DNA of 64,000 nt from a bacterium (GTDB lineage: Bacteria; Elusimicrobiota; Elusimicrobia; Elusimicrobiales; UBA9959). The notes under the pieces were generated by a model, which was not told where the DNA came from, searched no databases, and saw nothing but the letters and a program-made list of their open reading frames with translations. Shown in pieces: positions 1-19,995 of this stretch; within the stretch, counting starts at the first letter, position 1; the number at the start of each line of letters is the position of its first letter. Location: contig JAJZPL010000003.1 of assembly GCA_021811185.1 (NCBI GenBank), forward strand, positions 1 to 64,000, in the 5' to 3' direction. The position numbers and the translations under genes are program-made.

Positions 1-83
1 TTTTTGTTTTATAGCTCTTTCTGTTTATTTTTGCCTTTCTCCCTTATCGGCTGTATACCAGCCGAATATCGAGTTCTGAAGTA

Positions 84-530
84 ATGCAAGAGCAGGATGG
101 ATTGTTGAAAGATGTTTCCAGTGAAATTGATGAAAAAAAGATTTCAAAGATTGAACTCTACTATGTGCCCTCATATATTCAAATGGGACTCGCTTTAACA
201 ACGCAGCGACTCTTTACTGGTAGACCTTTAGTGATAACACTCACAGATAATCATAAATTAAAAGATATTTCTTTGGCTTTGCGAAATACTACGCCAATTA
301 ATAAGGTTGTTAGGTCTGATATTAGAGTTGGGATTATTGTTTATGGTCAGAATGGGCAAAAAAGATTGATGGTTGCTGTTGGGCGTAATGGTGGGGCGGA
401 GATAAATTCAAGCGAATGCGTATTGAAGGGACGTCTATATCGTGTTCTCGTCTCTATTGCAGAGGGTGACGACTATTCGGGAATAAGCTTTAAACAAAAA
501 GTGCTTAAATTTTATTCGAAATACCTGTAA
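84..530 (+). CDS. Hypothetical protein, 148 aa
   Basis: Open frame of 148 codons from ATG at 84. No signal peptide or membrane segment is visible and no family is recognised. The sequence alternates hydrophobic beta-strand-like segments (around residues 25-55 and 75-125) with polar turns. It may be the body of the lipoprotein whose lipobox lies out of frame just upstream. No convincing ribosome-binding site precedes the ATG, which favours the decayed-gene reading over an intact gene. Confidence 0.5.
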   Translation: MQEQDGLLKDVSSEIDEKKISKIELYYVPSYIQMGLALTTQRLFTGRPLVITLTDNHKLKDISLALRNTTPINKVVRSDIRVGIIVYGQNGQKRLMVAVGRNGGAEINSSECVLKGRLYRVLVSIAEGDDYSGISFKQKVLKFYSKYL

Positions 531-557
531 AGCTGGGAACAATATCGATTTCGTGTT

Positions 558-671
558 ATGGATACGGTAGGTTTGTCTCCTTCGCGATGGCTGTTCATTG
601 AAAATGAAGTGCGCTGGATTACAATGCAAAAGGCTGTAGTGTTTCGCGACGGCAAGCATATTAATTTATGA
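558..671 (+). CDS. Small ORF, 37 aa, coupled to the next gene
   Basis: ATG at 558 opens a 37-codon frame whose stop overlaps the next gene's start as ATGA (668-671), the usual arrangement of translational coupling. It lies in the same frame as the 84-530 gene, separated from it by one stop codon, so it may simply be that gene's former C-terminus. The peptide is rich in Trp, Arg and Val; no function can be proposed. Confidence 0.25.
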   Translation: MDTVGLSPSRWLFIENEVRWITMQKAVVFRDGKHINL

Positions 672-1207
672 AGAAAATTGTTTTAACGTTAGTCTTGTTG
701 TTTCTGTTGCGTGGGGCGTCTATTGCAAGCGCACCGTTCACTCTTACTGTAATCGATTTTAAAATAGGTAAAAGCGGATTTTTTTCAAGTAATTATTCCA
801 TTGTTGCGAAATATAAAATTGAGAATAATTCCAAACAATCCGCATACTACTTAAAGGAACAGAATCCAACAGCCCATTTCTATTTGCAAGACACAAATTT
901 GGGCTTGGAATTAGTCCCAATTCAGTGTCCCGAAATAGTGGGAGAAGAACCTTTTTGGTCGATTGTATCTGAAATCCGTCTAGGGGAGAGCAAGTTTTTT
1001 ACTTATACGGGTAAGTTGGCGGGTGAATATCTCCAAAAGTATAAGCTCAAAGATATCTCCGGGATGGAAATTAAGGTCGCATATTATGTTGAGCCGCTTC
1101 GCGATGTTAAGTGCGTAGAAAAGACAAGCAACTCAGAACTTATTGTTAAATGTGCCTGCTTCCCAAAACTTGGGAAGTATTCCGTTCTTTCTGGCCGTAA
1201 TAAATAA
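668..1207 (+). CDS. Exported hypothetical protein, 179 aa
   Basis: Begins with a clear Sec-type signal peptide: two Lys, then a Leu/Val-rich core, with likely cleavage after residues about 19-21 (ASA). The mature part is about 155 residues with four Cys, two of them close together near the C-terminus (CAC). It looks beta-rich, but I recognise no family. The start overlaps the preceding small frame as ATGA. No strong ribosome-binding site is visible. Composition is AT-rich like the preceding gene, unlike the core chromosome. Confidence 0.6.
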   Translation: MKKIVLTLVLLFLLRGASIASAPFTLTVIDFKIGKSGFFSSNYSIVAKYKIENNSKQSAYYLKEQNPTAHFYLQDTNLGLELVPIQCPEIVGEEPFWSIVSEIRLGESKFFTYTGKLAGEYLQKYKLKDISGMEIKVAYYVEPLRDVKCVEKTSNSELIVKCACFPKLGKYSVLSGRNK

Positions 1208-1282
1208 AGAAGAGCTACCGATGTTTTTGTATGCAGAGTGCAGAGGAAAGTCTTGAGCCCCGACATTCTAGAGGCGCTTGAA

Positions 1283-2422
1283 ATGAAATTAGGAATACAG
1301 ATAATTTTGGGTTTATTGTTCACGGCGCATTTAAGTGCGGCGGGGGCGTTGTCGCAGAAGAGTGCTGTGTTGGTGCTTTCGCCAGATATGGGGACGGCGG
1401 AGGGGCGTGTTGCCGTTGAAAAGCTTAAGTCCGATCTGTCCGCACAGGGAGTAAGTCTGACCGAGATTTCAGCCGATGAATCGCAAGATATTGTACAAGC
1501 CGGACTGATAGCTGATGGCGGTCCGGTTATCACTACGGAGTCTCAGGCCGGGAAAATAGAATTTAAGATGCATGACGGAGTATCAGGCGCGGATATAACC
1601 AAGACTTTCAACGCTACGTCCGTCGCGTTAACCCCTGCGGTAAAGGCTGAGCCTGAAAAGGGGCCCGAGCCTGCAGTGGTCGTAAACCCCGAACTGGTGG
1701 AGCAGCCTAAGCCGGTTGAACGCCCTGTGTTTCAGCCTGTGCCGCGCGAGACCACGTCCTTTGCGTGGAATCATATTGGCCTTTCCCTGGGGCCGTCCAA
1801 CTTTACTAAGAATAAGGACAGCTTAGAGATGCTTCAGCAGTGGAATCCCGGTTCACAGATCACCTACACGAAGACGAGCGGGCGCTTCCAGTTATTCTAC
1901 GAGAGGGATCTGTCTAAAAACTACACGTTAGGCCTGTCTGGTGAGTTCGAGAAGGGCGGCGGCGCTAAATGGGACAATAACGGCACGCTTTCCGTAGAGC
2001 CGAAGCATAAAGCGGCGAATGTATACCTCCGGCGTAATTTCGGCAGGCATTTTGGACTTTATCTGGGCGGCGGGGCGGATATGGTGTCGCTCCATGTTGT
2101 CGACCTGGGTAATATGGCAGGTGTTGGCTATAATGTGCTGTTTAAAAGCGACGTAACCGTTCCCCATGCGGAAGCCGGGGTGGCGTTAAGCGCCGGCAAT
2201 TTATCTTTGCGGTTCTCTCTCCGTAAAATGCTGGCCGCCGAAAGCAGCGAATTGGCTACAACCGTTAATGGCTCCAAGACCAGGCTGATAATAAAGAACA
2301 GAAAAACGCTTAGCACTAAGGCCGTAGGTCAGCCCCTGGAAGCTAATGAACAGCTTTATAAGGCCGATCTCGGCGGTACAGCTGCCGCGGTATCGCTAAC
2401 ATACTCTTTCGCCAACTGGTAA
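1283..2422 (+). CDS. Probable outer-membrane beta-barrel protein, 379 aa
   Basis: ATG at 1283 is chosen over an in-frame GTG at 1238 because GAGG lies 8 bases upstream and the protein then opens with a good signal peptide (cleavage near residue 21). Residues about 24-105 form a small soluble domain with alternating strands and helices. Residues 115-150 are a Pro/Glu/Val-rich linker. From about 165 on, amphipathic strands with Gly and aromatic residues alternate, and the chain ends in a strand finishing Phe-Ala-Asn-Trp. A terminal aromatic residue is the usual signal for the BAM outer-membrane insertion machine. Family unknown; the barrel assignment is inference from pattern. Confidence 0.6.
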   Translation: MKLGIQIILGLLFTAHLSAAGALSQKSAVLVLSPDMGTAEGRVAVEKLKSDLSAQGVSLTEISADESQDIVQAGLIADGGPVITTESQAGKIEFKMHDGVSGADITKTFNATSVALTPAVKAEPEKGPEPAVVVNPELVEQPKPVERPVFQPVPRETTSFAWNHIGLSLGPSNFTKNKDSLEMLQQWNPGSQITYTKTSGRFQLFYERDLSKNYTLGLSGEFEKGGGAKWDNNGTLSVEPKHKAANVYLRRNFGRHFGLYLGGGADMVSLHVVDLGNMAGVGYNVLFKSDVTVPHAEAGVALSAGNLSLRFSLRKMLAAESSELATTVNGSKTRLIIKNRKTLSTKAVGQPLEANEQLYKADLGGTAAAVSLTYSFANW

Positions 2423-2498
2423 AGGCGCAATATCCGCACTGATATGGCGCGGTGTCATCCGTGTTCCCGCCTGCGACTTGGGGGGAATTGCCTCGTTT

Positions 2499-5400
2499 AT
2501 GAATTTAAATGCTATTCTCACCGACCAGCGCTTGGCGCGTGTTCTTAATGAAAACACTGAAGAAAGTGTTAAGCTTCAGTTTTGGATATTGCAAAGCGGA
2601 TCAGCTCAAAACTTAAAGTTAGATCTGATCTATGGTTGGGTAATTCCAGCACAGAATCAAAAGCAAGGCGTATGGGATGTTCAGCTTCAAGCGTCTCTCT
2701 TGTCGGAACTAAAGAAGTCGACGGAAATCTTCCGACTTTGGCGGCTTTCTCTAAGTCAAAGCGGTGCTGTGCTTTTTCGACTAATTGAAGCTCTCTGCCA
2801 GGACAAGTCCCTTGCAGAGGCGGCAAGTGCCGCGTCAATATCTGCCCCCGACGCCAAATTCTCCGGACTACATTTGGTCAATTCGCCTCTCTCTGTTGAG
2901 AAAGTGTTTGCCCCTCGTCCAACAGTATTCTTAACTGCAAAAATAGTGACGGATTCTTCGTTCGGAGGAGGCGCGAGCCCGCTAGTGGAGATCCCCGCGT
3001 GGCTTGCGTCCTTGTTCAGGCTAGAAAAACTCTCATTTTGGCAGCCTATCGGAGGGGAACGCAATCCAAACGTGTCCGAACTTATTGCGGAGGCACTTGG
3101 TGTTTTATCTCACGAGACTGGATTTAAATTCTTAGATACGGATTCCCAACGTCTTGGCAATATTGAATGGATTACATTCCCGACTCTAAATGAACAGCGT
3201 AATCCTTTAGTCCGATTTGACTCGGTCAGAGAGAAAACAACTACTGTTAACGGTGATAAGAAGATCACTGCGGAATCTGCATCTGTTCGTATCGATGAAG
3301 GAGCCTTTGTTGCAGGTACGGAGTTGTTGGTGCGTTGCCGACTGTTAAACGGCGAAGAGATCATATCTGATCTATGTGAGTCTTTAACCTTTTCCGGGCA
3401 GGCCAAAACACTCGTATTTCATGCCGTCGAGCCCATTAGTGCGATGCTGGTCGGCGTGTGGGCAAAAACAACCAAGGGAGCACAGTTTGAACTGGTATAT
3501 GAGAATGGTGCGCATCTTATTCGTTCTATTAGTGTCGACGTAAGGCTTCTAAATTCCTATGCCATCCAACGGTCCAAGTGGCTTGATAGACTGATTGGTA
3601 AATCTAGCGCCGCGACTCTTCCACCAGTATCACCTTCTTGGACGCGTGACTACATGGACGATCCATGGGTGCCATCAGGCCGAGAGATTCGTTCTCTTAT
3701 AAAGAAACTTATTCCCAAAGTTTCAGAGGGCGCATTTTTTATTAAAGGTCAGGGCAAGGAGTCTGATAGAATTACCGAGCTAGCAGACTGGATTAATGCG
3801 ATACTAAACAATTACGCTACAGTTACAACCGCTGTAATATTTGACCCGTACTTCGGGACCACTGGGATCGATCTCGTTGCTGCTCTGAAGCGGCCCAGTG
3901 TAGAATTTATTGCAGTAACTACGACAACATTGTTGTCTGATGATTCTGAACCACGGCGTACGCGCGTGGATGGAAGTGGTTTATGGCGCGAAATACGCTG
4001 GATTATTTCATGCCTAAGAACATCATTAAACCGCCTTCATGGGAAAGCTCCAGTTGAACCGGCACGGGCAATCCAAATCAAGGAGTATTGTTTAAAGATC
4101 GCTCCCAGCCTGGAAACTATTGCGTTACGCATATTAGATTTTCGACACAGCGGTTTGGTTCCCAAACAACTTTTTCATGATCGCTACCTCTTGTTGTTTG
4201 ATCAGGATGGAGGGATGCTGTCTGGATACCATTTCTCTAATTCAATTCAAAGAGCAATGGTCAATTTTCCGTTGCTAATTACGCCAATACCTTCCGACCT
4301 GTATAAACCGTTTGAAAGGTATATTGACGATATTGTTAAAAAGGCTGGAACCGACAGGGCTCCCGCCTGGGAAATTAAGACGCTGTTCTCATCGCATGAG
4401 CTCCGGGATGAGAAGCGAAAGCAGGCCAGGCCAAGTTCCACAACCGCGCCCGCAATCGATTCCGTACTCCTAGCGTCCCCAGTTAGTTATTCTAATGCGC
4501 TGTGTAACGCGTCAGCGGCCGATTTGCCGAAGTTGCTAAAGGACTTGGCATCATGGGCTTGCGGCACAGCTGGCTCGGATACATTCTTGGATGGAGTTGT
4601 GGCGGCAGCGGCCCAAAGTCTAGGAGACAAACTCCTTTCTTGGCTGTTGACGACTACACAGCCCGGGAATATTTCAGTGGCAACTTTTGTGAAGGCTGCT
4701 GCTAATAGTGTGGACCACTATCAAGCCGATCCTGAAGGATGGCTGAAGATGACCTTCAAAGAGGCTCTTGAATTTAACCGCACCTTCTGGACGCATGGGT
4801 TTTATGTCACTATCGCCCCAACGAACGAAATAGATTTGGGGATTCAGTTTCTTGCTGGCCTTAACTCAAAAGTGTTTAGTGACTTTGCGGTAAATATCTA
4901 TAAAATGCAAAAGGATCCCAGCGAGGTGCGGAGTTATCTGTTTGGTCTGATTGTTGCCGAGTCTTTTAAGCGCCTGAAGTATCGAAAAGATGTCAAAATG
5001 CAAAATACCCTCCTAATGTGTGAGGTGCCTTTCTTGCGTGCTTTGGCTGCTCAGAGTGCTATGGCTCCATCATCTACGAACCTGCTAGTGCCACTCGAGA
5101 AGCTAGAGCAGGTACAGGCATTGGCTAATTGGGCATATGATCTCCGAGTGCAAGCCAATATCAAAGGGCGCACGGAGTCGCAGGAGATTCGGGATTTTAG
5201 GTTGGAAATATTCGCAGCTATGATTGCGGCATGGCCTGCAAATATTACACCTCTTTTGCTTAGGCAGATAATTTTCATGCTAAGTGGCCCGATAGAGGGC
5301 AGCTGGTCTCATTCCAACCAAGAGGATCTTTTGGATATACTTGAAGGGAAAGGATTACTTGGTAAAAATATTTCCGCTGAGTTGTGGTTAACATTGTTCT

Positions 5401-5804
5401 TGGAAAGACTTGAACGAGATATTAGGGAATTACATTTTTATGAGCCGGTGGATGTTGAGCTAACAAGAACCGCAGCAGCAGCCCTGGTGCGGATGGATGA
5501 AAATGTTCGCATGCAATGGTTAAGAAGAATTAAAAAGATAGATGGGGGAGCGGCCAAAACCTTAGAAGACTTTACCGCGCGGTCACGAGACTATAGTGTT
5601 TGGATATATGCGGTAGAAACTGTAGTCTGGCTCAATTCGTTTGAACTCTGTGTAGTCAGAGCCGGTTCGATTCCGGCGGAAGAAATCTCATATATTTCAT
5701 CTTATGGCAAACATTTTCTCCCAGGCCTATTGGATCCCAAAGGTGAGGAGTACGTGTCAGCGTTAGGTGACCTCATGGAGTTTTACAAGAGTTGTTTGAT
5801 ATAA
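2499..5804 (+). CDS. Large protein with PLD-like central domain, 1101 aa (possible defence protein)
   Basis: ATG at 2499 is preferred to a TTG at 2478; a G-rich stretch lies about 12 bases upstream. The N-terminal 350 residues are mixed alpha/beta with no recognised motif. Residues about 390-640 resemble half of a phospholipase-D-like fold: a strand reading AVIFDPYFG, then FHDRYLLLF with H560 and D561, then GYHFSNS. This HDR variant replaces the usual HxK. The C-terminal 450 residues are predominantly helical. The overall plan resembles the large VPA1262-type proteins of bacterial defence islands; that family link is from memory and tentative. No signal peptide, so cytoplasmic. GC is clearly below the core genes. 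It lies upstream of a repeat array and a mobile module. Exact activity unknown. Confidence 0.6.
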   Translation: MNLNAILTDQRLARVLNENTEESVKLQFWILQSGSAQNLKLDLIYGWVIPAQNQKQGVWDVQLQASLLSELKKSTEIFRLWRLSLSQSGAVLFRLIEALCQDKSLAEAASAASISAPDAKFSGLHLVNSPLSVEKVFAPRPTVFLTAKIVTDSSFGGGASPLVEIPAWLASLFRLEKLSFWQPIGGERNPNVSELIAEALGVLSHETGFKFLDTDSQRLGNIEWITFPTLNEQRNPLVRFDSVREKTTTVNGDKKITAESASVRIDEGAFVAGTELLVRCRLLNGEEIISDLCESLTFSGQAKTLVFHAVEPISAMLVGVWAKTTKGAQFELVYENGAHLIRSISVDVRLLNSYAIQRSKWLDRLIGKSSAATLPPVSPSWTRDYMDDPWVPSGREIRSLIKKLIPKVSEGAFFIKGQGKESDRITELADWINAILNNYATVTTAVIFDPYFGTTGIDLVAALKRPSVEFIAVTTTTLLSDDSEPRRTRVDGSGLWREIRWIISCLRTSLNRLHGKAPVEPARAIQIKEYCLKIAPSLETIALRILDFRHSGLVPKQLFHDRYLLLFDQDGGMLSGYHFSNSIQRAMVNFPLLITPIPSDLYKPFERYIDDIVKKAGTDRAPAWEIKTLFSSHELRDEKRKQARPSSTTAPAIDSVLLASPVSYSNALCNASAADLPKLLKDLASWACGTAGSDTFLDGVVAAAAQSLGDKLLSWLLTTTQPGNISVATFVKAAANSVDHYQADPEGWLKMTFKEALEFNRTFWTHGFYVTIAPTNEIDLGIQFLAGLNSKVFSDFAVNIYKMQKDPSEVRSYLFGLIVAESFKRLKYRKDVKMQNTLLMCEVPFLRALAAQSAMAPSSTNLLVPLEKLEQVQALANWAYDLRVQANIKGRTESQEIRDFRLEIFAAMIAAWPANITPLLLRQIIFMLSGPIEGSWSHSNQEDLLDILEGKGLLGKNISAELWLTLFLERLERDIRELHFYEPVDVELTRTAAAALVRMDENVRMQWLRRIKKIDGGAAKTLEDFTARSRDYSVWIYAVETVVWLNSFELCVVRAGSIPAEEISYISSYGKHFLPGLLDPKGEEYVSALGDLMEFYKSCLI

Positions 5805-5851
5805 CCGTTCCGAAATAGTGCTTTTGCGCTGCCAGTTGCGTAACTGTTTAA

Positions 5852-5948
5852 CCGTGATGACTACCGTGATGCTGCCGTGGCAGGCACCGTGGCTTTACCG
5901 TGATCCCACCGTGACCCGACCGTGATTGCACCGTGACTTCACCCGTGA
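5852..5948. repeat. Iteron-like array: nine CCGTG(A/G) repeats at 11-12 bp spacing
   Basis: CCGTG starts at 5852, 5864, 5875, 5887, 5898, 5909, 5920, 5931 and 5943. Successive spacings are 12, 11, 12, 11, 11, 11, 11 and 12 bases, close to one DNA helical turn, so all copies face the same side of the helix. Most copies read ACCGTGA. The array lies in the 269-base gap between the PLD-like gene and the HTH gene, about 125 bases before the latter. Helically phased arrays of this kind are typical of replication iterons, partition sites or cooperative operators. Which one applies here is not decided by sequence. Confidence 0.8.
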
Positions 5949-6031
5949 CTGTTTTTACACAATACCCAGCTTCTTACCTTCAAATCCAGTAGTAATTTCG
6001 CACTAAGTTGCGGCATTCCGTATTTAAAACC

Positions 6032-6061
6032 TTGGAATTTTGTTTTTATAAGTGATACAAT
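6032..6061 (+). promoter_or_regulatory. Promoter of the mobile module with overlapping operator palindrome
   Basis: TTGGAA at 6032-6037 and TACAAT at 6056-6061 are separated by 18 bases, a plausible sigma-70 promoter for the HTH gene at 6074. A perfect 7-base inverted repeat, ATAAGTG (6048-6054) and CACTTAT (6069-6075), brackets the -10 box and the start codon. A protein bound there would block initiation. The likeliest regulator is the HTH protein itself (autorepression), by inference. Confidence 0.55.
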
Positions 6062-6073
6062 AAGCGAACACTT

Positions 6074-6583
6074 ATGAAAACCACATCCGCTATCTACGAC
6101 CCGCATTCCGGTTCCGAAATGATGACCGCCGAGCAGTCGGCGGACTATCTGGGCTATCATTACGCTTCCATACGCCGTCTAGTGCGGGAGAAGGCGCTGA
6201 AACCGTATACGAGCATTGGTAAGGCCTTTTTATTCCTTAAGGCTGATATTGTGCGGTTCCAAGGCAACCATCCTTGGGCGGCTGGTAAGGCGGGGAGGGA
6301 AAAGCAGACTAATCCGTCTCCGGAACCACCGCGCAAACTGGAGGCCTCTGTTGTGGTTTCACGCCGCGACAAAATATTTGATGGCGTATGGAAGACCGAT
6401 CCTGACTTTACCTGGGATAAACTGCCTCTGATCAAGGCTGACGTTAACAGCGCGTTCGGCGACCAGGACTTCACTGTTAAGGTGACAAGCCCTGACGGCG
6501 GTAATTGGGCAATTCGTTACTTCCCGGTCTCTCCGCTGGATACAGCTATAAAGAAGGTAACTAATAAATTTAAAGGTAAATAG
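6074..6583 (+). CDS. HTH (excisionase-type) DNA-binding protein, 169 aa
   Basis: Residues about 20-62 match the helix-turn-helix_17 / excisionase pattern: MTAEQSADYLGYHYASIRRLVREKALKP written in short pieces as MTAEQSADYLG then YASIRRLV, followed by the wing and a KADIVRF helix. Residues 75-95 are a Pro/Lys-rich linker. The C-terminal 70 residues form a small unrecognised domain. Such proteins act as recombination directionality factors or small repressors. It heads a module ending in a tyrosine integrase, which supports an excisionase role; the palindrome over its own promoter supports a repressor role. The next gene starts 9 bases downstream. Confidence 0.7.
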   Translation: MKTTSAIYDPHSGSEMMTAEQSADYLGYHYASIRRLVREKALKPYTSIGKAFLFLKADIVRFQGNHPWAAGKAGREKQTNPSPEPPRKLEASVVVSRRDKIFDGVWKTDPDFTWDKLPLIKADVNSAFGDQDFTVKVTSPDGGNWAIRYFPVSPLDTAIKKVTNKFKGK

Positions 6584-6592
6584 CGGGGGGCT

Positions 6593-7117
6593 ATGCGTAA
6601 TATCTCGCAAATGACCTATAACGTGCCGCGAATCAAAAGCATTGCGGTGGAGAACGTCAACTGCTTTAAAAAGCTAACACTGAAGTTCTCGCCGGGGCTT
6701 AACATAGTTGCCGCGCACAAGGGTACTGGCAAAACCACGTTAATCAGCCTGCTGGCTGGCGCTCGTGAAGATGCCTTCATGCTCGTCGACGAAAATCTCC
6801 GGCGAGGTCAGAAAAAAGGAGCTGTTTCGGTGGTTTATGAGCCATTCCAACATTCCTTTACCGGCCGGAGGTATTCCTTGCCCTATGGCCCGCTGTGGGT
6901 AACGGACTTTACAACGTTGAAAAGCGTTATTAAGGGATTGCCGAAAGAGCATTGCCTATTGGTTGAACTCGACTGGCTTATTTACGGGCGTATTCAGGTG
7001 CCGCGTGAACAAATATTCACGGTGTTGTCTAAAGTGCGGTGCCAGGTAATAGCCACGGTCAGTCCTATCGGCTTGGACAGCCCGGCTTTAAAAGGATCAG
7101 AGATATTAAGGTTATGA
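6593..7117 (+). CDS. Miniature ABC/RecF-type ATPase, 174 aa
   Basis: The N-terminus resembles SMC/RecF/OLD heads: a strand pair ending in FSPGLNIV, then a Walker A P-loop (AAHKGTGKTT, about residues 37-46). A candidate Walker B follows (CLLVELD, about residues 121-127), and then a switch-like strand ending IATVSP, where related ATPases usually carry THSP. No LSGGQ-like signature and no coiled-coil arm are present. The protein is much shorter than normal heads (300 or more residues). It could be a degenerate regulatory ATPase or need a partner for activity. A G-rich ribosome-binding site precedes the ATG. Its stop overlaps the next gene as ATGA, so the two are translationally coupled and probably partners. 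Confidence 0.6.
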   Translation: MRNISQMTYNVPRIKSIAVENVNCFKKLTLKFSPGLNIVAAHKGTGKTTLISLLAGAREDAFMLVDENLRRGQKKGAVSVVYEPFQHSFTGRRYSLPYGPLWVTDFTTLKSVIKGLPKEHCLLVELDWLIYGRIQVPREQIFTVLSKVRCQVIATVSPIGLDSPALKGSEILRL

Positions 7118-8316
7118 AGAAACCGGAACTTAAACAGCGAGCGTGGGTGCGCAAGCACCGCAACAACCTGCCCCAACTCCATGTGCAGGTAAGCCGCCGC
7201 ATTCTTGTTTTGCGGGATAAACTCTGGCGCGGAGATCTTAAACCCTTCGTGTTTATATTGGAGGGGGTACTGGGGCTGAAACCTCCTACGGTAGCCTTAT
7301 TCAATGCCATGGTAGCCTGTTGGGAGCTTGATACCCCGAAGCTATGTTACGGGAACTATCTTAACCTGCTGGCGGTCGCCTCGGCTTTTAGCTATTTCAA
7401 CCGGCGGAATAAGAGCGGCTTCAATGTGTTGGCCTACGCCCCGCTTAACGGCGTTCCCTCGGACCACATCCACCTGCTGGACTTTACTCCGGTGGAGCTG
7501 GGCAGGCACTTGGATGCGGCAATACTGGCGCATGGGTTAGGGCGGGAATTCACATTGATATGTAACTGGTTGAAGGCCACTTCATTCAAGCCGGAGCCGC
7601 TTACCATCAACCCTTCCTATATGTATAAAGCGCAGTCACGACGGAACGATTTTCTGGAGAACCTTTACGCCCTGAACGGAAGCAAGGTTATTGCTAATAA
7701 GTCCGCGCTAAAATTGCACCTCATGGCAAATCACAACTTTACTCCTGACAGCGAAGCTTTTACTGAGAGACTCTCTCGTGAATTTGCGCAAGTCCGAGCA
7801 GCCCGCCTCCCATTAGCCCGGAAGTACGACGCAGCGCGGTTTGAAAGCTTGAAGGCGGGCGTAGGCGTACCTTGGGCAGCATCGGGAAATACGCTGGCGC
7901 AACTTTTTCTGAAATGGACACAGGGGGATAACAGTGTATTCGGGCTGAGCGTTTTGCAGGAACTCTTGGAGCAGGAGGCGCAGCCTGCACCCGAGAAAGG
8001 CACCCCGGACGAAATCTATATTGTGGTCAAGCAGGTGGCGGCCCGCCGTGAGCTTGTTCAAGACGTGAGAGAGCAGGAAAAATCGAATGTTGCGGCATTA
8101 GTGGAATGCCGGAAGAAATATCCGGGCATGACCTTGAAACAATTGGAGTCAGATTGCGATGGCAGTAATCAACATCTTGAAGCCGCGCTGGACGAAGCCA
8201 GCGAGAAACTTCACCGTGGTCCCGAGTTCGCCCGGAAGCTTTACAAACGGGCCAGCGCCAACGCCGCAATAAATATGGTCTGGTCGGAATATCTAAGGCG
8301 GTTCGCGTCATTTTGA
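7114..8316 (+). CDS. Unknown protein coupled to the mini-ATPase, 400 aa
   Basis: ATG at 7114 overlaps the previous stop (ATGA) and is chosen over earlier in-frame starts that would run inside the ATPase gene. The N-terminal 30 residues are strongly basic. Residues 30-200 are mixed helices with several aromatic residues. Residues about 300-370 are Glu/Lys-rich and may form a coiled coil. No catalytic motif or membrane segment is recognised. The basic N-terminus and its setting between an ATPase and a DNA methyltransferase suggest a DNA-associated role, by inference only. It has no recognised homologue, which makes it the least understood part of the module. Confidence 0.6.
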   Translation: MKKPELKQRAWVRKHRNNLPQLHVQVSRRILVLRDKLWRGDLKPFVFILEGVLGLKPPTVALFNAMVACWELDTPKLCYGNYLNLLAVASAFSYFNRRNKSGFNVLAYAPLNGVPSDHIHLLDFTPVELGRHLDAAILAHGLGREFTLICNWLKATSFKPEPLTINPSYMYKAQSRRNDFLENLYALNGSKVIANKSALKLHLMANHNFTPDSEAFTERLSREFAQVRAARLPLARKYDAARFESLKAGVGVPWAASGNTLAQLFLKWTQGDNSVFGLSVLQELLEQEAQPAPEKGTPDEIYIVVKQVAARRELVQDVREQEKSNVAALVECRKKYPGMTLKQLESDCDGSNQHLEAALDEASEKLHRGPEFARKLYKRASANAAINMVWSEYLRRFASF

Positions 8317-8458
8317 TTTGTTTTGCGCATTCTGGTCTTTGAAAAATATTTGCTCGGTTCATTGGGGAAGGGGATATTGTGCATTGGATGATGTCCCTAT
8401 CTCTATGATGGCAGAGGCCCTAAAATATTGGTGTGCGAACCAATACTCGGAGGCCACA

Positions 8459-9433
8459 ATGGAAACCTTTCTAAACCGCGTGTTCTGTAAGTCGTCAGCG
8501 GAGATGAGTGAGATCCCTGATGAAGCCGTAAACCTGGTATTTACTTCGCCGCCGTACGAGAAGTTAAAGCATTATTCCGACAACTCCGAAGATTTGGGCA
8601 ACTATCAAGGGGCGGAGTTCGTCGTGCGGCTTAAACCCGTGCTCGCCGAATGCTTCCGGGTGCTGAAGCCAGCCGGGAACCTGTTCCTTAACTTTCAAGC
8701 CCCGCATCTGGACGGTTTCGTTTCACCTTCGGAATACCTGATCCCGCGTATGGCTATTGAGGATATTGGTTTTTTTCATGTGCAGACCCACTACTGGTTT
8801 AAGCCGAACGTTATGCCAATGCCGGCAGCTAAGGTGGTTAAGGGCGCGGTGGAGCTGCTCTGGCACTTTGCGAAGTCGGCGGATTTTTACGTTGATAAGG
8901 CCGCGCTTAGAATTACTGCGGAACAGGCAGACATAGTCGACCAGCCTGATGAATCTATCCCAGCGGTAAAGGACTCAGGTAATGCGTTCTTCGAGCGCAC
9001 GGCCCAAGAGCGCCAAGGAGTGCATCCGGCGAAGATGCCTTTGCCGGTGGCCGAGCGTTTCATCCTTTATGGAAGCAGGCCGGGTATGGTGGTTTTGGAC
9101 CCATTCTGCGGCTCAGGTACAACGCTGGCGGCCGCGCGTAAGCACGGCAGGGGCTTTATCGGCTACGAACTTAACCCGGCATATGCCGAACTGGCCAAGG
9201 GGAATTACGAAGAAGTTCATACTATTCCTGACGTGCACTTATCCTTGCAGAACAAGAAATGGCTGACCATGGACGACATGGTGCTGTATTCGAGCGTAGC
9301 GAAGGCAACTCTATACAGCATGATCAGCAATGGCGAGATCCCTGTTCATAAGGCGGGGAGGCTTAACCGGTTCGACAAGGACGAAATTGACAGGTGGATG
9401 CGCGGCGAATGGAAAGCACCGGCGGAGAAATAA
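8459..9433 (+). CDS. DNA methyltransferase (beta class) fused to C-terminal HTH, 324 aa
   Basis: ATG at 8459 is chosen over longer in-frame starts because GGAGG lies 6-7 bases upstream. The catalytic motif TSPPY (residues 29-33) comes before the AdoMet-binding motif DPFCGSG (214-220), the order of beta-class amino-methyltransferases. An SPPY motif favours N4-cytosine but N6-adenine is possible. The region between should hold target recognition. Residues about 268-315 form an excisionase-type HTH (MDDMVLYSSVAKATLY, then GRLNRFDKDEIDRWM), an unusual extension. No restriction endonuclease lies beside it, so it may be an orphan or element-protecting methylase. The integrase follows 9 bases after its stop. 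Confidence 0.85.
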   Translation: METFLNRVFCKSSAEMSEIPDEAVNLVFTSPPYEKLKHYSDNSEDLGNYQGAEFVVRLKPVLAECFRVLKPAGNLFLNFQAPHLDGFVSPSEYLIPRMAIEDIGFFHVQTHYWFKPNVMPMPAAKVVKGAVELLWHFAKSADFYVDKAALRITAEQADIVDQPDESIPAVKDSGNAFFERTAQERQGVHPAKMPLPVAERFILYGSRPGMVVLDPFCGSGTTLAAARKHGRGFIGYELNPAYAELAKGNYEEVHTIPDVHLSLQNKKWLTMDDMVLYSSVAKATLYSMISNGEIPVHKAGRLNRFDKDEIDRWMRGEWKAPAEK

Positions 9434-9442
9434 GAATCAGCT

Positions 9443-10531
9443 ATGGCGCGAGGAATCTGGCGAAGACGAAAGGAGAAAGGGAAACCCGCCGAGCTCTATG
9501 TTGTATATAGGGACTCGAAAGGCCTGCGTCATCGCGAAAAAGTGGGCCCGGAGTCGCCAGAGAACCTTCGCCTTGCCAAAGAACTGCTGGCCCGAAAACA
9601 GTTGGAGTCCTTTGAGCCACCGCGTCAGCATAGACCGCTCAAGCGGCTTACCTTCCGTGACCTGGGCGAGAACTATTGGCGGTTGCTGGGCGCGCAGAAG
9701 TCCCGCACTTGGCGTTGCATGCTGGAGCTGCTGTACGAGGATTTAGGAGCGAGCCTTGCCGACGAGTTGACCACCAAGGATTTACAGGAGTTTTATAACC
9801 GTAAGATACAGACCCGCTCGGCTTCAACGGCCAACCGCTATCTGACGCTCATTAATACGGTCTATAATCGCGGTATAGAGTGGGGGGACATCAAAGGCTC
9901 AAATCCCGCCAGCGGCGTGCGCCGTAAGCCCGAGAGCCCCTCCCGGTTGCGTTATTTAAGCCTTCAGGAGTTGGAGACGTTTCTGACCGTGTGCCAGCAA
10001 CCCCGTTTTGCCAGGCTTTACCCCGTTGTGGTCTGTGCCCTGTTCACCGGCATGCGCAGGGGGGAGATAATGGCGTTGGACTGGCAGAATATAAACTTGG
10101 AACACGGGACCATTTATATACTGCATTCTAAATCCGGCAAACCACGAGAAATTCCGATAGCCGCCAAACTGCATGAGGTCCTTGTTTCTGTCGGCCCTAA
10201 AACCGCCGGTCCTGTGTTCGAGATTCCGGATATCACCTGCCGAAGGCTGTTTGATCTTGCCAAACTCCAGTCCAAGCTACCGCCTTTCCGCTTTCACGAC
10301 CTGCGCCACACCTTTGCCAGTCATTTTGCCATGAAGACCAATGACATGCTGGCCTTGCAGCGCATTCTCGGCCACGCCAGTCCCCAAATGACCCAGCGCT
10401 ACGCCCACCTCTCCCGAGGCCACCTGGACGCCGCCATCAAACAGTTCGACGCCTCCATGCCTGAGTTGGATATTGACTCTAGACCCAACCCTTTAGAAAT
10501 AAGAGCGAGCGTGACTATTAACACAATTTGA
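9443..10531 (+). CDS. Tyrosine recombinase / integrase, 362 aa
   Basis: Full-length phage-type integrase. The N-terminal 60 residues are a basic arm-binding-like domain. Residues about 70-165 are the SAM-like core-binding domain. The catalytic domain shows R205 (GMRRGE), a Lys in the SKSGK hairpin, H285 and R288 (HDLRH), H311 (LGHAS) and the nucleophile Y320 (QRYAHL). It would carry out site-specific integration and excision of the surrounding element. It is the last gene of the five-gene module. The tRNA-Thr gene at 14,597 is a plausible chromosomal target, although the STAND gene lies between. Confidence 0.93.
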   Translation: MARGIWRRRKEKGKPAELYVVYRDSKGLRHREKVGPESPENLRLAKELLARKQLESFEPPRQHRPLKRLTFRDLGENYWRLLGAQKSRTWRCMLELLYEDLGASLADELTTKDLQEFYNRKIQTRSASTANRYLTLINTVYNRGIEWGDIKGSNPASGVRRKPESPSRLRYLSLQELETFLTVCQQPRFARLYPVVVCALFTGMRRGEIMALDWQNINLEHGTIYILHSKSGKPREIPIAAKLHEVLVSVGPKTAGPVFEIPDITCRRLFDLAKLQSKLPPFRFHDLRHTFASHFAMKTNDMLALQRILGHASPQMTQRYAHLSRGHLDAAIKQFDASMPELDIDSRPNPLEIRASVTINTI

Positions 10532-10666
10532 ACAGGCGGATCCTAATACTTCAGTACAACTCCTTTGTAAGAATTTAATTAGTGCCTACCTCGGTCTTAT
10601 CTTATAAATAAGTTAGAATTTACCCAGTAGGGGCTCACATATTTCCATTAAAGGAAGCTGTATTCA

Positions 10667-13600
10667 ATGCTTACGCTTAAACCACTTGAAGTTGTTGCCC
10701 TTGGGCGAACTCCCGGCGGACATGAGTTCACGCAATTCGTCGATTCAATTATTCGCGCTCATGCATATGCTTGTGGCGTTACTCACGACAAGGTGAAGAC
10801 GAACCAGCGAACCAACCTGGCTGATGGCGGTGTTGACACTACTGTTGATGTTCTTCTTACTGGAGATGCGACAGGATGGTTTAGTAATCCTACGGTTTGG
10901 CAGTATAAAGCAACCGCCGAAGAGAACATCTCTCCTAGTGCCCTACATGACGAAGTAAATAAACCATTTGCGGCGGAACTAATAAAAAAAGGTTATGCCT
11001 ATAGATTATGTATCTGTTCGGAAATCACGCCCGAAAAAAAGACAGAGTTAAATGAAAAGCTTAAAACAGAAGTCGCTGCTTTGTCTTCTACCGCACCAAT
11101 CCCAAGAGTTCTGAGTGCCGGGGATCTGGCCGCCTTAGGCAGTCTATTCCCGGCTATAGTCATGCCGATGCATAGATTGACTGGCTTTGGTATCCCATAC
11201 AGCGCATGGCAGAAAAACGCCCTTGAGCGAATTCGGACATATGTGCCCGTGGAAGCATGGGCTTCAGTTATGGAAGCCATTAAACAACATGTAAAGTTTA
11301 CTAATTCCCCGAATAGCCCCGTTTTTTCAATTCAGGGTGAGCCGGGCGTAGGAAAAACAAGATTGGTTTTGGAAGCACTTGGTAGTGACCCTGGATTGAT
11401 ACCCCTAACCCTTTATACAGATGATGATGATGGTGCCCGCCAACTCGCACGGGCCTTAGCTAGCGATCAAAACTCGAGGGCAATTATAGTGGTGGACGAA
11501 TGTTCGGTAACGCAGCGGATACAATTAAGTGAAATACTGCTTGGACATAAACAGCGTGCCAGAGTTATTGCGATTGATAATAGCGGAGAACGCCCTGCGA
11601 CAGGGGCTCCTGAACATTGGTTAACCCGGATGGATCAGAGCGTAGTGGAAAAGGTGCTTGAGAAAAATTTTCCTGAAGTTCCCGCTGATAGGCGGCACGC
11701 ATATGCTGATAAGTCCGGAGGCTTTATCCGGATGGCTGCTGATTTATGTCTCCACGATGTTGAAATTGAGGCCGCAGGGAATCTCGCCCCTATCCTCTCG
11801 AACATTAATGACTATTACTTCCAACGCAGGTTAACACCCGAGGAGCGGACCACACTGGCTGCTTTATCCCTGGTGACTAGAGTAGGATACAAAGGGGACT
11901 TGCAAGGTGAATTGGACGACCTGTGTCGTCTTACTTCGCTTCAAATCGCACAGGTTAAGGAAACCGCAAATAGACTTCATGACACCATTGGCTTTGTTGG
12001 TCGGGGGGGAAGATTTTTCTATGCGACCCCGGCAATTATTGCGCAAGTGGGGTTTGCCGAGGCATGGAGGCGCTGGGCTAGTCCAGATATCTCCACGTTC
12101 TTAAGTAATATTCCGCAGTCACTTATGGAAAAGTTCAACCGACGTGTTAAAGATAGCGCTTCTCCGGAGGTGCGCGCCTCTGTGGGCGAATTTTTTTGGG
12201 ACTGGGCCAGCAATCTGACTGCTGCTAATCTTTCAGACTCAAATGCCGTTGCAAGGTTGGGGACTCTCACCGAGATGTCTCCCATACGTTTCTTGCCCTT
12301 AATTCGGAGATTAATCGAAACAGCTACGGAAGCTGAATTATTAGCGATAATCGGTACAGTTCCCACCACGGGCAAATGGGGATCAAGAAGAACTTTGGTG
12401 TGGCTTATTGAAAAGCTGGTTCGCTTTCCTGAACATTTTTCGGACTGTGAACGCATATTGCTTCGGTTGGCTAGTGCGGAGTCCGAGCCCAATATCGCAA
12501 ACAACGCGTCTGGAATATGGTGTCAGATATTTCACGTGTTTCTTTCTGGGACGGCTGTTCCATTCCTTGATCGATTAAGCATTGTTAAGGAACGTGTTTT
12601 AGATCCAGATCCACGGGTTTCAGAATTAGCTGTAAAGGCATTTGACTCCTTATTCGATTCGCATTTTACTCGTATGGGAACGGCCTCTGTGGTGGGAGGG
12701 AGGCTGCCTCCCGAGGACTGGCGACCCCGCACAGCAGCTGAGCAGAATGCTTGTCTCGACGGAATAATCAGTCTGCTAGGCTTCTTGTTGAGCCATGAAA
12801 ATCCCAAATGCAAAGAGGCGGGGCAAAGAATCGCTATTGGCAACTTGCGAGTGATCTTAGGTTGGGGATACCTAGACACAATCATGCCCGGGTTGACGGG
12901 GGCTAAGCTTTCTGAACCTGCACGCATAAGCCTGATTTCCAAAATACAGGAATACGTGCGTTATGACTGTTCTCCGGAACATAAGGGCGGAGATCTTGAG
13001 TATGAGGCCAAGGTTCATGCGTGGCTCAAATCGTTGAAGCCGATAGATTTTCATGGCAGACTGATTACTGCAATTGGGGTGGAGCCATGGAGCCATGCCG
13101 TATTACAGGATGAGGATGCATGGAAGGCGGATATTGCGGCTTTGGCTCATGAAATCGTAACTGATCCCGAAGCGCTTAAAATGGAAACTGCATGGCTGTT
13201 TTCCGACGCTGCGAAAAGCGCCGCCGTGCTGGGGGTTAACATCGGTCGTCAAGACCCCGAAGGAAAACTGTTGCAGTTTATTGTCGAGGCGACCTTGCAG
13301 TTCAAGACAGCATTGCTTGCGAAAGGCTATGTGTCAGGATTATTGCAGGGGGGGGCTGGAATGGCGCCTGAAATTAATCTGGCAATTGACCATATTCAAG
13401 AGGTCGCCCCTAATCTTGCCTATGAAATATTTGTCGCCGAGCCTGGGGCAACGCACGGTTTCTCCCGGCTAATTTCCCTATATGATGCAGGTAAGCTGTC
13501 TGTTTCCGCGTTTCATAGTTTTATTTATGGGGGAATGCGGCGTACATTATCCTTTGATGAGTTTGAGCTGGCTTTGGAACGCTTATTGGCTTGTGCAAAG

Positions 13601-14389
13601 AGCGACCTGACTGCATTTAGGATCGCACTTCAACTTATAGCATTTGAGTTGAAAGACGAAAAAACCGCAGGTGAAGGACAAACTCGCCAAACGCCTATCC
13701 TGGAACGCCCTAAGATTCGGAAGGCAGCGTGGGAATTGTTAAATATCGCGGCAACCACTGACGGAACGGATGTCGACTCATATTGGTGGGCAGAAATATT
13801 GAAAGTCTTGCTCCCAACTGACCCCGAGCAGGCGGTAGTTGTGTGTGTCGCGGGGCTGTCTTCCCACGATACACACCTGCGGGACAACGCGTCTGCATTT
13901 CTTGCACAACTTTCCGCAACATGTCCAGAGCATGTTATGAGGTGTTTTGGTGAAGCTCTGCTGGATAAAACAAAAGGGCACTATATGTGGGTGGCTCATG
14001 CGCCAATTATGTCTAGTCTCCCGATTGAAACGGTAAAAGCTTGGTTAGATGTTTCAGGGGTTGAGGGGGCGAGGGCTATCGCAAGGCATTTGCCTGCTCC
14101 GGCATTGGATGGTAATGGTCAGCCCTACTTGCCGCCTCTTACTGAATTCGTTCTGACGAAGTATGAAGACGATGATAAAGTATTTCGATCTTTTCTTCTT
14201 GGGCTCCACGGTTTACGTTTCTACTCAGGGGATATTGCCAGCCAACATGACGCGGAGGCGAATTTGGCTGAAAAATTCTTAAATCATCCTCTTCGCCGGA
14301 TAAGAGAATGGGCAAGGGATGAGCGGGATGGAGCAAGACAACAGGCAGAGCGATGGCGGCAAAATGATGAGGAAGATAAAATTGATTGA
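10667..14389 (+). CDS. STAND-type NTPase with N-terminal PD-(D/E)xK-like nuclease, 1240 aa (Avs-like)
   Basis: The N-terminal 180 residues show a restriction-nuclease-like pattern: DGGVD with D57, then Q79-x-K81 in WQYKA, as in Mrr/Cap4-type nucleases. Residues about 195-480 form a P-loop NTPase with Walker A GEPGVGKTR (224-232) and Walker B VVDE (D277, E278), followed by a helical region. Residues 480-1240 are helical and repeat-like, as expected for a ligand-sensing solenoid. Nuclease-STAND-sensor is the architecture of antiviral Avs proteins, which recognise phage proteins, oligomerise and cut DNA. The assignment to a known Avs type is not made. An AGGA precedes the ATG by about 11 bases. 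Its GC is below that of the core, and it lies alone between the integrase and tRNA-Thr as cargo. Confidence 0.75.
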   Translation: MLTLKPLEVVALGRTPGGHEFTQFVDSIIRAHAYACGVTHDKVKTNQRTNLADGGVDTTVDVLLTGDATGWFSNPTVWQYKATAEENISPSALHDEVNKPFAAELIKKGYAYRLCICSEITPEKKTELNEKLKTEVAALSSTAPIPRVLSAGDLAALGSLFPAIVMPMHRLTGFGIPYSAWQKNALERIRTYVPVEAWASVMEAIKQHVKFTNSPNSPVFSIQGEPGVGKTRLVLEALGSDPGLIPLTLYTDDDDGARQLARALASDQNSRAIIVVDECSVTQRIQLSEILLGHKQRARVIAIDNSGERPATGAPEHWLTRMDQSVVEKVLEKNFPEVPADRRHAYADKSGGFIRMAADLCLHDVEIEAAGNLAPILSNINDYYFQRRLTPEERTTLAALSLVTRVGYKGDLQGELDDLCRLTSLQIAQVKETANRLHDTIGFVGRGGRFFYATPAIIAQVGFAEAWRRWASPDISTFLSNIPQSLMEKFNRRVKDSASPEVRASVGEFFWDWASNLTAANLSDSNAVARLGTLTEMSPIRFLPLIRRLIETATEAELLAIIGTVPTTGKWGSRRTLVWLIEKLVRFPEHFSDCERILLRLASAESEPNIANNASGIWCQIFHVFLSGTAVPFLDRLSIVKERVLDPDPRVSELAVKAFDSLFDSHFTRMGTASVVGGRLPPEDWRPRTAAEQNACLDGIISLLGFLLSHENPKCKEAGQRIAIGNLRVILGWGYLDTIMPGLTGAKLSEPARISLISKIQEYVRYDCSPEHKGGDLEYEAKVHAWLKSLKPIDFHGRLITAIGVEPWSHAVLQDEDAWKADIAALAHEIVTDPEALKMETAWLFSDAAKSAAVLGVNIGRQDPEGKLLQFIVEATLQFKTALLAKGYVSGLLQGGAGMAPEINLAIDHIQEVAPNLAYEIFVAEPGATHGFSRLISLYDAGKLSVSAFHSFIYGGMRRTLSFDEFELALERLLACAKSDLTAFRIALQLIAFELKDEKTAGEGQTRQTPILERPKIRKAAWELLNIAATTDGTDVDSYWWAEILKVLLPTDPEQAVVVCVAGLSSHDTHLRDNASAFLAQLSATCPEHVMRCFGEALLDKTKGHYMWVAHAPIMSSLPIETVKAWLDVSGVEGARAIARHLPAPALDGNGQPYLPPLTEFVLTKYEDDDKVFRSFLLGLHGLRFYSGDIASQHDAEANLAEKFLNHPLRRIREWARDERDGARQQAERWRQNDEEDKID

Positions 14390-14482
14390 CTTGTTGCGTG
14401 CCTTGTACGGTAAATCAAAACAGGTTTTTTGTCCTAATTTTGTTCTGTTTTGTTGTGTTTTGTTTGGCTTGCTTTAGGGCTT

Positions 14483-14516
14483 GGTGGCTAGAAAGTAGCC
14501 ACCAAAACTAGCCACC
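14483..14516. repeat. Hairpin and direct repeat beside the tRNA (terminator or recombination site)
   Basis: GGTGGCTA (14483-14490) and TAGCCACC (14496-14503) form a perfect 8-bp stem with a 5-base loop. A second copy of TAGCCACC follows at 14509-14516. No U-tract follows, so a terminator is not certain. Repeated inverted octamers about 80 bases before a tRNA gene, next to an island with an integrase, could also be recombinase arm sites. A TTTTGT-rich stretch (about 14,420-14,470) precedes it. Confidence 0.45.
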
Positions 14517-14596
14517 TGGACCTTTTGCCGCCTGCCTCTTCATTAGGGAGATTTTGTAAATACTCCTGAATTTACTAATATATAGTGTAGTTATTC

Positions 14597-14669
14597 GCCG
14601 AGGTAGCTCAACTGGTAGAGCGTTCGCTTCGTAAGCGACAGGTTGTGGGTTCAAGTCCCATCCTCGGCT
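14597..14669 (+). tRNA. tRNA-Thr (anticodon CGT)
   Basis: A complete 73-base cloverleaf is visible. The acceptor stem is GCCGAGG paired with CCTCGGC, the D-arm GCTC/GAGC, the T-arm contains GGTTCAAGTCC, and the anticodon loop reads TTCGTAA, giving anticodon CGT (reads ACG, Thr). The anticodon stem has one mismatch at its outer pair. CCA is not encoded. It marks the boundary between the low-GC island and the GC-rich core and is a likely integration site. Confidence 0.93.
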
Positions 14670-19741: not shown

Positions 19742-19787
19742 CGTCCCGGCGCGGCGGGGGACGAACAGCCTTTTTGCCGTTTCATGG

Positions 19788-19912
19788 CCATAGGCCTTGG
19801 CCGTCTGAGGCGCATAGCGCTTGTTACGGCATGACCATAGGTCTAATACGGCACAAACATGGTTTTGGCCGTCTGTTGACCATAGGCCTTGATACGGCAC
19901 AAACATGGTTTT
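19788..19912. repeat. Modular tandem repeats, about 46 bp period
   Basis: CCATAGG(C/T)CT occurs at 19788, 19835 and 19880 (spacings 47 and 45). A 21-base word beginning ATACGGCACAAAC is identical at 19846-19866 and 19892-19912. GGCCGTCTG occurs twice between them. The 254-base gap between the ligase/TPR gene and the OmpA-family gene is mostly made of these shuffled modules. There is no CRISPR organisation (no unique spacers of fixed length) and no coding frame I trust. Confidence 0.7.
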
Positions 19913-19995
19913 GTAACAATCCTGCAATATTTAAGCAAACAGGAAAGTGTTAAATATACGGGCGGTAGACTAAACGGATTTTGCGGAGATCTGAG

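Follow-up and report, generated by a model that had tools for sequence, protein, structure and literature searches.

A DNA methyltransferase with an excisionase-like domain at the probable mobility end of a tRNA-integrated Elusimicrobia island

Results

A probable island in a tRNA gene with a three-gene core

We analyzed a 64,000-nucleotide stretch of DNA (the window) that forms the start of contig C7 (JAJZPL010000003.1) in an Elusimicrobiales genome (GCA_021811185.1; 79 contigs, 93.57% complete, 5.22% contaminated). On balance, we favor reading five genes at 6074..10531 as the integrase-proximal end of a defense-carrying island that is integrated in a tRNA gene and encodes a DNA methyltransferase (methylase) fused to an excisionase-like helix-turn-helix (HTH) domain. 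The island type is known; the unusual part is the mobility core, in which the HTH is fused to a methylase. A first-pass annotation had called the five genes a mobile module matching no known class of element. Mobility is borne out by an integrase and a pair of attachment (att) repeats, and the class can now be named as a tRNA-integrated genomic island, so that a puzzling gene set is explained as its mobility end. The features that define the island and its core are as follows.

1..14589, unstranded: right-hand part of the predicted genomic island (GC 48.6%; att repeat pair), continuing past the window's left edge
7114..8316, + strand: 400-amino acid (aa) protein, conserved core gene (3/340 genomes; alignment of three copies; no family)
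8459..9433, + strand: DNA methyltransferase with C-terminal excisionase-like HTH_17, core gene (N6_N4_Mtase E 1.8e-39; HTH_17 E 2.8e-9)
9443..10531, + strand: tyrosine integrase, conserved core gene (Phage_integrase E 1.4e-26; R/HxxRH/H/Y residues present)
14438..14523, unstranded: arm-type repeats near attR (TTTTGTTCTG decamers at 14438-14465; TAGCCACC copies at about 14483-14518)
14590..14638, + strand: att repeat (attR), comprising 7 bases before tRNA-Thr and its 5' 42 bases
14597..14669, + strand: tRNA-Thr(CGT), predicted restored target gene

The attR repeat recurs without a mismatch (49/49 bases) at C3:142992-143040, on another contig (C3) of the same genome. Identity between the two tRNA copies stops inside the anticodon arm, and an extra block of 16 identical bases lies immediately upstream of the tRNA repeat. 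Because the displaced tRNA copy on C3 and the att repeat in the window mark its ends, the island would measure at least about 31.5 kb, with 16,876 bases on C3 and 14,589 in the window. Its GC content is low at both ends (46.1% in the C3 part, 48.6% in the window part; adjoining chromosome, 63.3% on the C3 side and 61.4% on the window side, right of the tRNA). Arm repeats of the TAGCCACC type and a TTTTGTCCTAATT stretch are common to both ends. The predicted insertion is in the 5' half of tRNA-Thr(CGT), and the far end of the island would lie on C3.

The conserved unit proved smaller than the five-gene module first described. All five open reading frames (ORFs) are present and intact (6074-6583, 6593-7117, 7114-8316, 8318-9433 and 9443-10531), with Pfam matches, in order, to HTH_17, AAA_23, no family, N6_N4_Mtase plus HTH_17, and Phage_integrase. 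Gene order is kept across genomes for the last three alone: the 400-aa protein, the methylase-HTH and the integrase recur together in three diverged copies, in the window and in genomes G002 and G021. A profile search found the 400-aa protein in three genomes, its own among them, out of 32 in the genus and 340 in the phylum, and the methylase (E ≤ 1e-50) occurred in the same three of the 340. Compared with the window, the two relatives had amino acid identities of 31 and 29% (400-aa protein), 52 and 50% (methylase), and 53 and 53% (integrase), making the 400-aa protein the fastest-diverging of the three. Around the other two copies, the stretches read contained no match to the HTH protein at 6074 or to the mini-ATPase next to it; these two genes are accessory to the core.

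Each of the three elements has a tRNA downstream of its integrase, with the 5' end towards the integrase: tRNA-Thr(CGT) in the window and tRNA-Val(CAC) in the other two. A displaced 5' half of that tRNA lies in every case on a second contig of the element's own genome, with 49/49 (window), 43/43 (G002) and 37/37 (G021) identical bases. Arm-type repeats, here of the AAATTGGACACC type, flank both tRNA copies in G002 and G021, and the genes surrounding the core differ between the window and the two other copies. These results suggest that the three-gene core is kept while cargo and target tRNA change. Decamer repeats of the TTTTGTTCTA type, like those near attR, were also seen between the methylase and integrase genes or at their end (L007 about 7962-8096; L008 4773-4796).

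We verified the close packing noted earlier, namely an ATGA overlap and two gaps of 9 bases each, with the exception of a methylase start at TTG 8318. Translation very probably begins at ATG 8459, which is preceded by GGAGG, and a 142-base gap therefore follows the 400-aa gene. The start of the latter is taken as ATG at 7114, where the ORF list has GTG 7039. The methylase gene ends 9 bases ahead of the integrase gene. The integrase is intact, as first described, but it is not the end of the element, which runs on through a gene at 10667-14389 to the att repeat at 14590-14638.

The methylase carries a putative excisionase domain

The methylase motifs TSPPY and DPFCGSGTT do not vary across the aligned three copies. 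They are arranged in the order of the beta class, and TSPPY is typical of N4-cytosine enzymes. Relatives among PDB sequences include the PvuII and CcrM methylases. The methylase had first been described as carrying its own excisionase-like HTH, and this was confirmed by the HTH_17 match and by TIGR01764 (excisionase), which scored 35.3 bits at the C-terminus, above the curated cut-off of 28.8.

Further evidence came from relatives of the integrase, which was found at E ≤ 1e-60 in 44 of 340 phylum genomes, the three elements included. We took the 30 loci of the best integrase matches, a non-random sample in which 27 lie outside the three elements. A small HTH_17 gene stood upstream of the integrase on the same strand in 24 of these 27, at 924 bases in one locus and no more than 329 in the 23 others, among which one overlaps the long ORF call of the integrase. 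A Hidden Markov Model (HMM) of this island excisionase-like protein, built from 10 of the 24, detected 14 of the 17 loci outside the building set. It also matched the three methylase C-termini (E 1.4e-17, 1.6e-15 and 5e-12). In the reverse direction, matches of the methylase profile in the 27 loci were confined to the small HTH ORFs. Because its HTH takes the position of the separate excisionase-like gene of these relatives, we read the protein as a methylase-excisionase fusion. It thus resembles excisionase family proteins (TIGR01764, HTH_17) in sequence and gene place, but differs from them in that the domain is part of a DNA methyltransferase.

Methylase relatives in viral contigs (9 loci) had neither an island-type HTH nor an integrase. 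In plasmid match H11 the methylase is annotated as a short separate gene, and match H12 bears no annotation. A literature search of titles and abstract openings, with subscription papers mostly outside its reach, returned no account of a methylase-excisionase fusion or of Elusimicrobia islands.

Integrases probably directed to the 5' side of tRNA genes

A tRNA followed the integrase on the same strand in 16 of the 27 related loci, with gaps from -20 to 558 bases and with Val, Ala, Thr, Arg, Gly, Lys and Phe represented; in all 16 the 5' end of the tRNA points to the integrase. A tree was built from 29 integrases, namely those of the three elements and 26 of the 27 (the sequence of locus L045 was too short and was omitted); in it, the fusion elements formed a single clade with support of 100/99. 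The related loci point to an Elusimicrobia integrase clade that targets the 5' side of many tRNA genes. In loci L021-L047, Elusimicrobia integrases frequently lead into a tRNA gene at its 5' end; the tRNAs are diverse, and in some loci integrase and tRNA overlap by about 20 bases. The integrase at L045 1510-1986, which is the same as L129 9906-10382 in genome G003, is truncated and shares 77% identity with the integrase of the G002 element over 151 aa; it is probably what remains of a relative of that element.

Like other tRNA-integrated islands of the Islander type, the element has ends marked by an integrase gene, a restored tRNA and a displaced tRNA fragment. It differs from them in that the fragment is the tRNA 5' half and a methylase carries the excisionase-like HTH as a fused domain; in the consulted portion of the Islander survey, a 5' fragment is given for 159 of 3919 islands (PMC4383910). 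Archaeal pTN3-like elements likewise target the tRNA 5' half and provide a new upstream region, as described in part of a review (PMC8371274). Here, in contrast, the host is bacterial and the integrase gene, which is whole, is separated from the tRNA by 4 kb that contain cargo. According to the same portion of that review, bacteria rarely have 5'-half sites at which the tRNA is expressed from the element (PMC8371274), and use of the 5' side by this Elusimicrobia integrase clade would be of that type.

The 400-aa core protein

The 400-aa protein of the window had no family match in Pfam, NCBIfam, PADLOC or PHROG, and none among PDB sequences at E 10. Plasmid, phage and viral-contig collections gave no match either, the viral scans being by short peptide patterns, and when a single genome from each of 84,980 species was scanned by pattern, the two known relatives were returned and nothing else. 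With simple and admittedly crude nuclease patterns, PD-D/ExK was absent from the window protein, HNH-like motifs were absent from all three proteins, and no pattern was common to the three. An AlphaFold model was mostly helical, with a mean predicted local distance difference test (pLDDT) value of 45.6.

Several candidate relationships were set aside. A DUF3226 match came from one of the three members (E 2.8e-4; 21.2 bits, cut-off 27), covered the profile's last half only and is probably due to chance, as are PHROG matches of single members at E 0.05-0.7. A single-protein search gave partial matches at E of about 0.005 (G002:C221, G011:C3 and G066:C3), none of which the profile search returned; the G002:C221 and G011:C3 loci contained neither the 400-aa protein nor the methylase at E 1e-3, just a 26%-identical recombinase. 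Four related proteins encoded ahead of the HTH in other islands were compared with it by hhalign, at a probability of 0.3%.

Of ten neighbors that we scanned upstream of the HTH and integrase genes of related islands, four matched Pfam families: Prim-Pol (L036), IstB-like (L028), AAA (L023) and TraG-like (L037). The remaining six, of 268-372 aa, had none. Because 4 of the 10 are of replication or transfer type, our best guess is that the 400-aa protein acts as a replication or maintenance factor, a role we favor over restriction. The leading alternative is that it is a cognate restriction enzyme.

Proposed mechanism and alternative explanations

In the scheme that we propose, the island would restore tRNA-Thr upon insertion and leave the 5' fragment at its far end. 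The C-terminal HTH of the methylase would most likely act on the arm repeats, both as excisionase and as regulator. The methylase domain may modify DNA near the att sites or island-wide, and methylation may be coupled to excision or protect the excised DNA; this is the weakest step. The 400-aa protein would be inherited together with the fusion. Tentatively, and as something we doubt more than we believe, the directionality factor may itself be the DNA methyltransferase: the fusion would bind and mark the att arms, methylation would set or record integration versus excision, and the private 400-aa partner would act in replication or restriction. In a prophage, Dam methylation at the integrase promoter influences reintegration (PMC12455584). 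An excisionase-like domain on a methylase, kept in three diverged islands, offers a testable route by which DNA methylation could steer island mobility.

Several observations weigh against the favored interpretation. C7 and C3, the contigs bearing the two ends, do not overlap. Directly joined flanks (an empty site) were not found in any sister genome compared: homology upstream of tRNA-Thr breaks off about 50 bases from the gene, and the C3 flank of G009 is some 8.8 kb upstream of it. Three of the 27 related loci lack the small HTH (L021, L024 and the truncated-integrase locus L045); the tRNA is on the opposite strand in 2 of the 27, and 9 have none within the examined stretch. The methylase HTH also resembles MAD1 (E 4.4e-13; 49.2 bits, cut-off 80), the AlphaFold model of the 400-aa protein is too poor for use, and runs of tandem-repeat detection found no 11-base array like that upstream of gene 6074 around the other two core copies.

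The MAD1 likeness bears on an explanation that we regard as unlikely, though worth serious attention: the methylase may be ordinary protective or epigenetic cargo whose HTH directs it to DNA or represses the operon, with the excisionase being another protein, such as the HTH protein at 6074. As in the methylation-associated defense system (MADS), whose regulator is MAD1, a MAD1-like HTH occurs together with a methylase, but here in a single fused protein adjoining the integrase. Among the PADLOC matches listed for seven window proteins, the sole mad name was a weak mad1 (E 0.003) for gene 6074 (best 25 of 74 families for the methylase; two proteins' lists comprised the best 25). Gene 6074 does encode a second HTH_17 protein, has a CCGTG repeat array just upstream, gives a weak TIGR01764 match under the cut-off (E 3.3e-4) and matches a PHROG excisionase/regulator family. 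However, it is unmatched in the stretches read around the other core copies, and the island excisionase HMM, which matches the methylase HTH, does not match gene 6074 at E 1e-3. The 400-aa protein could, alternatively, be a restriction endonuclease with the methylase as its partner, the pair lying beside the integrase and the HTH merely controlling its transcription. The two genes co-occur strictly (3/3), and the 400-aa protein is fast-diverging and has no detectable family, both of which are common for restriction enzymes; a BsuBI/PstI-type enzyme in the G002 sister island shows that such cargo occurs. When viewed as a Type II restriction-modification system, however, the set has intact methylase motifs and, by family and pattern searches, no recognizable endonuclease partner in the 400-aa protein. 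The nuclease patterns named above, the mostly helical though low-confidence predicted fold, and the position of the methylase HTH where relatives have a stand-alone excisionase-like gene also argue against such a pair, which we consider rather unlikely.

The C3 tail and the C7 start could instead be parts of two islands, from different or tandem insertions at the same tRNA-Thr. The lack of contig overlap would permit this, tandem islands at one tRNA are known from the part of the Islander survey consulted (PMC4383910), and G003 too has a displaced tRNA-Thr 5' fragment. The arm repeats and TTTTGTCCTAATT stretch common to both ends, together with low GC at both, speak for one island, and we find two insertions improbable. 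The G003 fragment (G003:C89; L112 about 10326-10367) is 98% identical over 42 bases and lies on a contig other than that of the G003 tRNA-Thr; it is a sign of another island using tRNA-Thr. Least probable of all, in our view, is that the segment is what remains of a prophage or conjugative element. Phage families do match the integrase and HTH, and a related integrase locus (L037) adjoins a gene for a TraG/TraD-like coupling protein. Against this, capsid, terminase, relaxase and secretion families were all absent from the scanned window and C3 island proteins, a set that comprises part of the ORFs and the two ends of the island, and the 400-aa protein is unmatched in phage, plasmid and viral collections. 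The first-pass annotation had likewise seen no capsid or relaxase, and so far nothing among these proteins marks the segment as a fragment of a known prophage or conjugative element.

Cargo and accessory genes

The remaining features of the window part are the following.

2478..5804, + strand: VPA1262-family protein, cargo (NCBIfam NF040699 E 7.4e-110, above cut-off)
5851..5950, + strand: nine CCGTG repeats, spacing 11-12 bases, upstream of the HTH gene
6074..6583, + strand: HTH_17 protein, 169 aa, accessory regulator (Pfam E 2.9e-8)
6593..7117, + strand: mini P-loop ATPase, 174 aa, accessory (AAA_23 E 8.3e-7)
10667..14389, + strand: PD-Lambda-4 A-like protein, cargo between integrase and attR (PADLOC E 1.3e-21)

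In the C3 part, proteins matched HTH_3, TPR, RES, AAA_23 and NERD. PADLOC identified adjoining LmuB-like (E 1.5e-74) and LmuC-like (E 1.3e-12) genes on C3 (L108 16557-19078 and C3 onward), with an RT-associated PDDEXK-like gene (E 5.3e-13) as a further neighbor. The gene at C3tail 19075-20340, which spans L108/L116, adjoins the LmuB/LmuC-like pair and may, by its position, be an effector. Cargo of the G002 sister island comprises, besides the BsuBI/PstI-type restriction enzyme, an HNH protein and a NERD-UvrD protein. The island therefore likely carries anti-virus genes, namely the Lamassu B/C-like and PD-Lambda-4 A-like ones. The earlier suggestion of a defense system carried by an integrative element fits these neighbors and the VPA1262-family gene.

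The mini-ATPase was found in 2 of 340 genomes at E ≤ 1e-12, its own included; in the other (G042), there is an overlap between its ORF and the end of the ORF for a related integrase. The nine CCGTG repeats exceed what Markov resampling produced (mean 0.63, at most 5 in 5000), and the array is possibly an iteron- or operator-like binding site for an HTH protein or an initiator. In the G021 element, a winged-HTH-like gene occurs twice, with 80% identity between the copies, one by each att end (L008 6231-6800 and L110 9089-9622).

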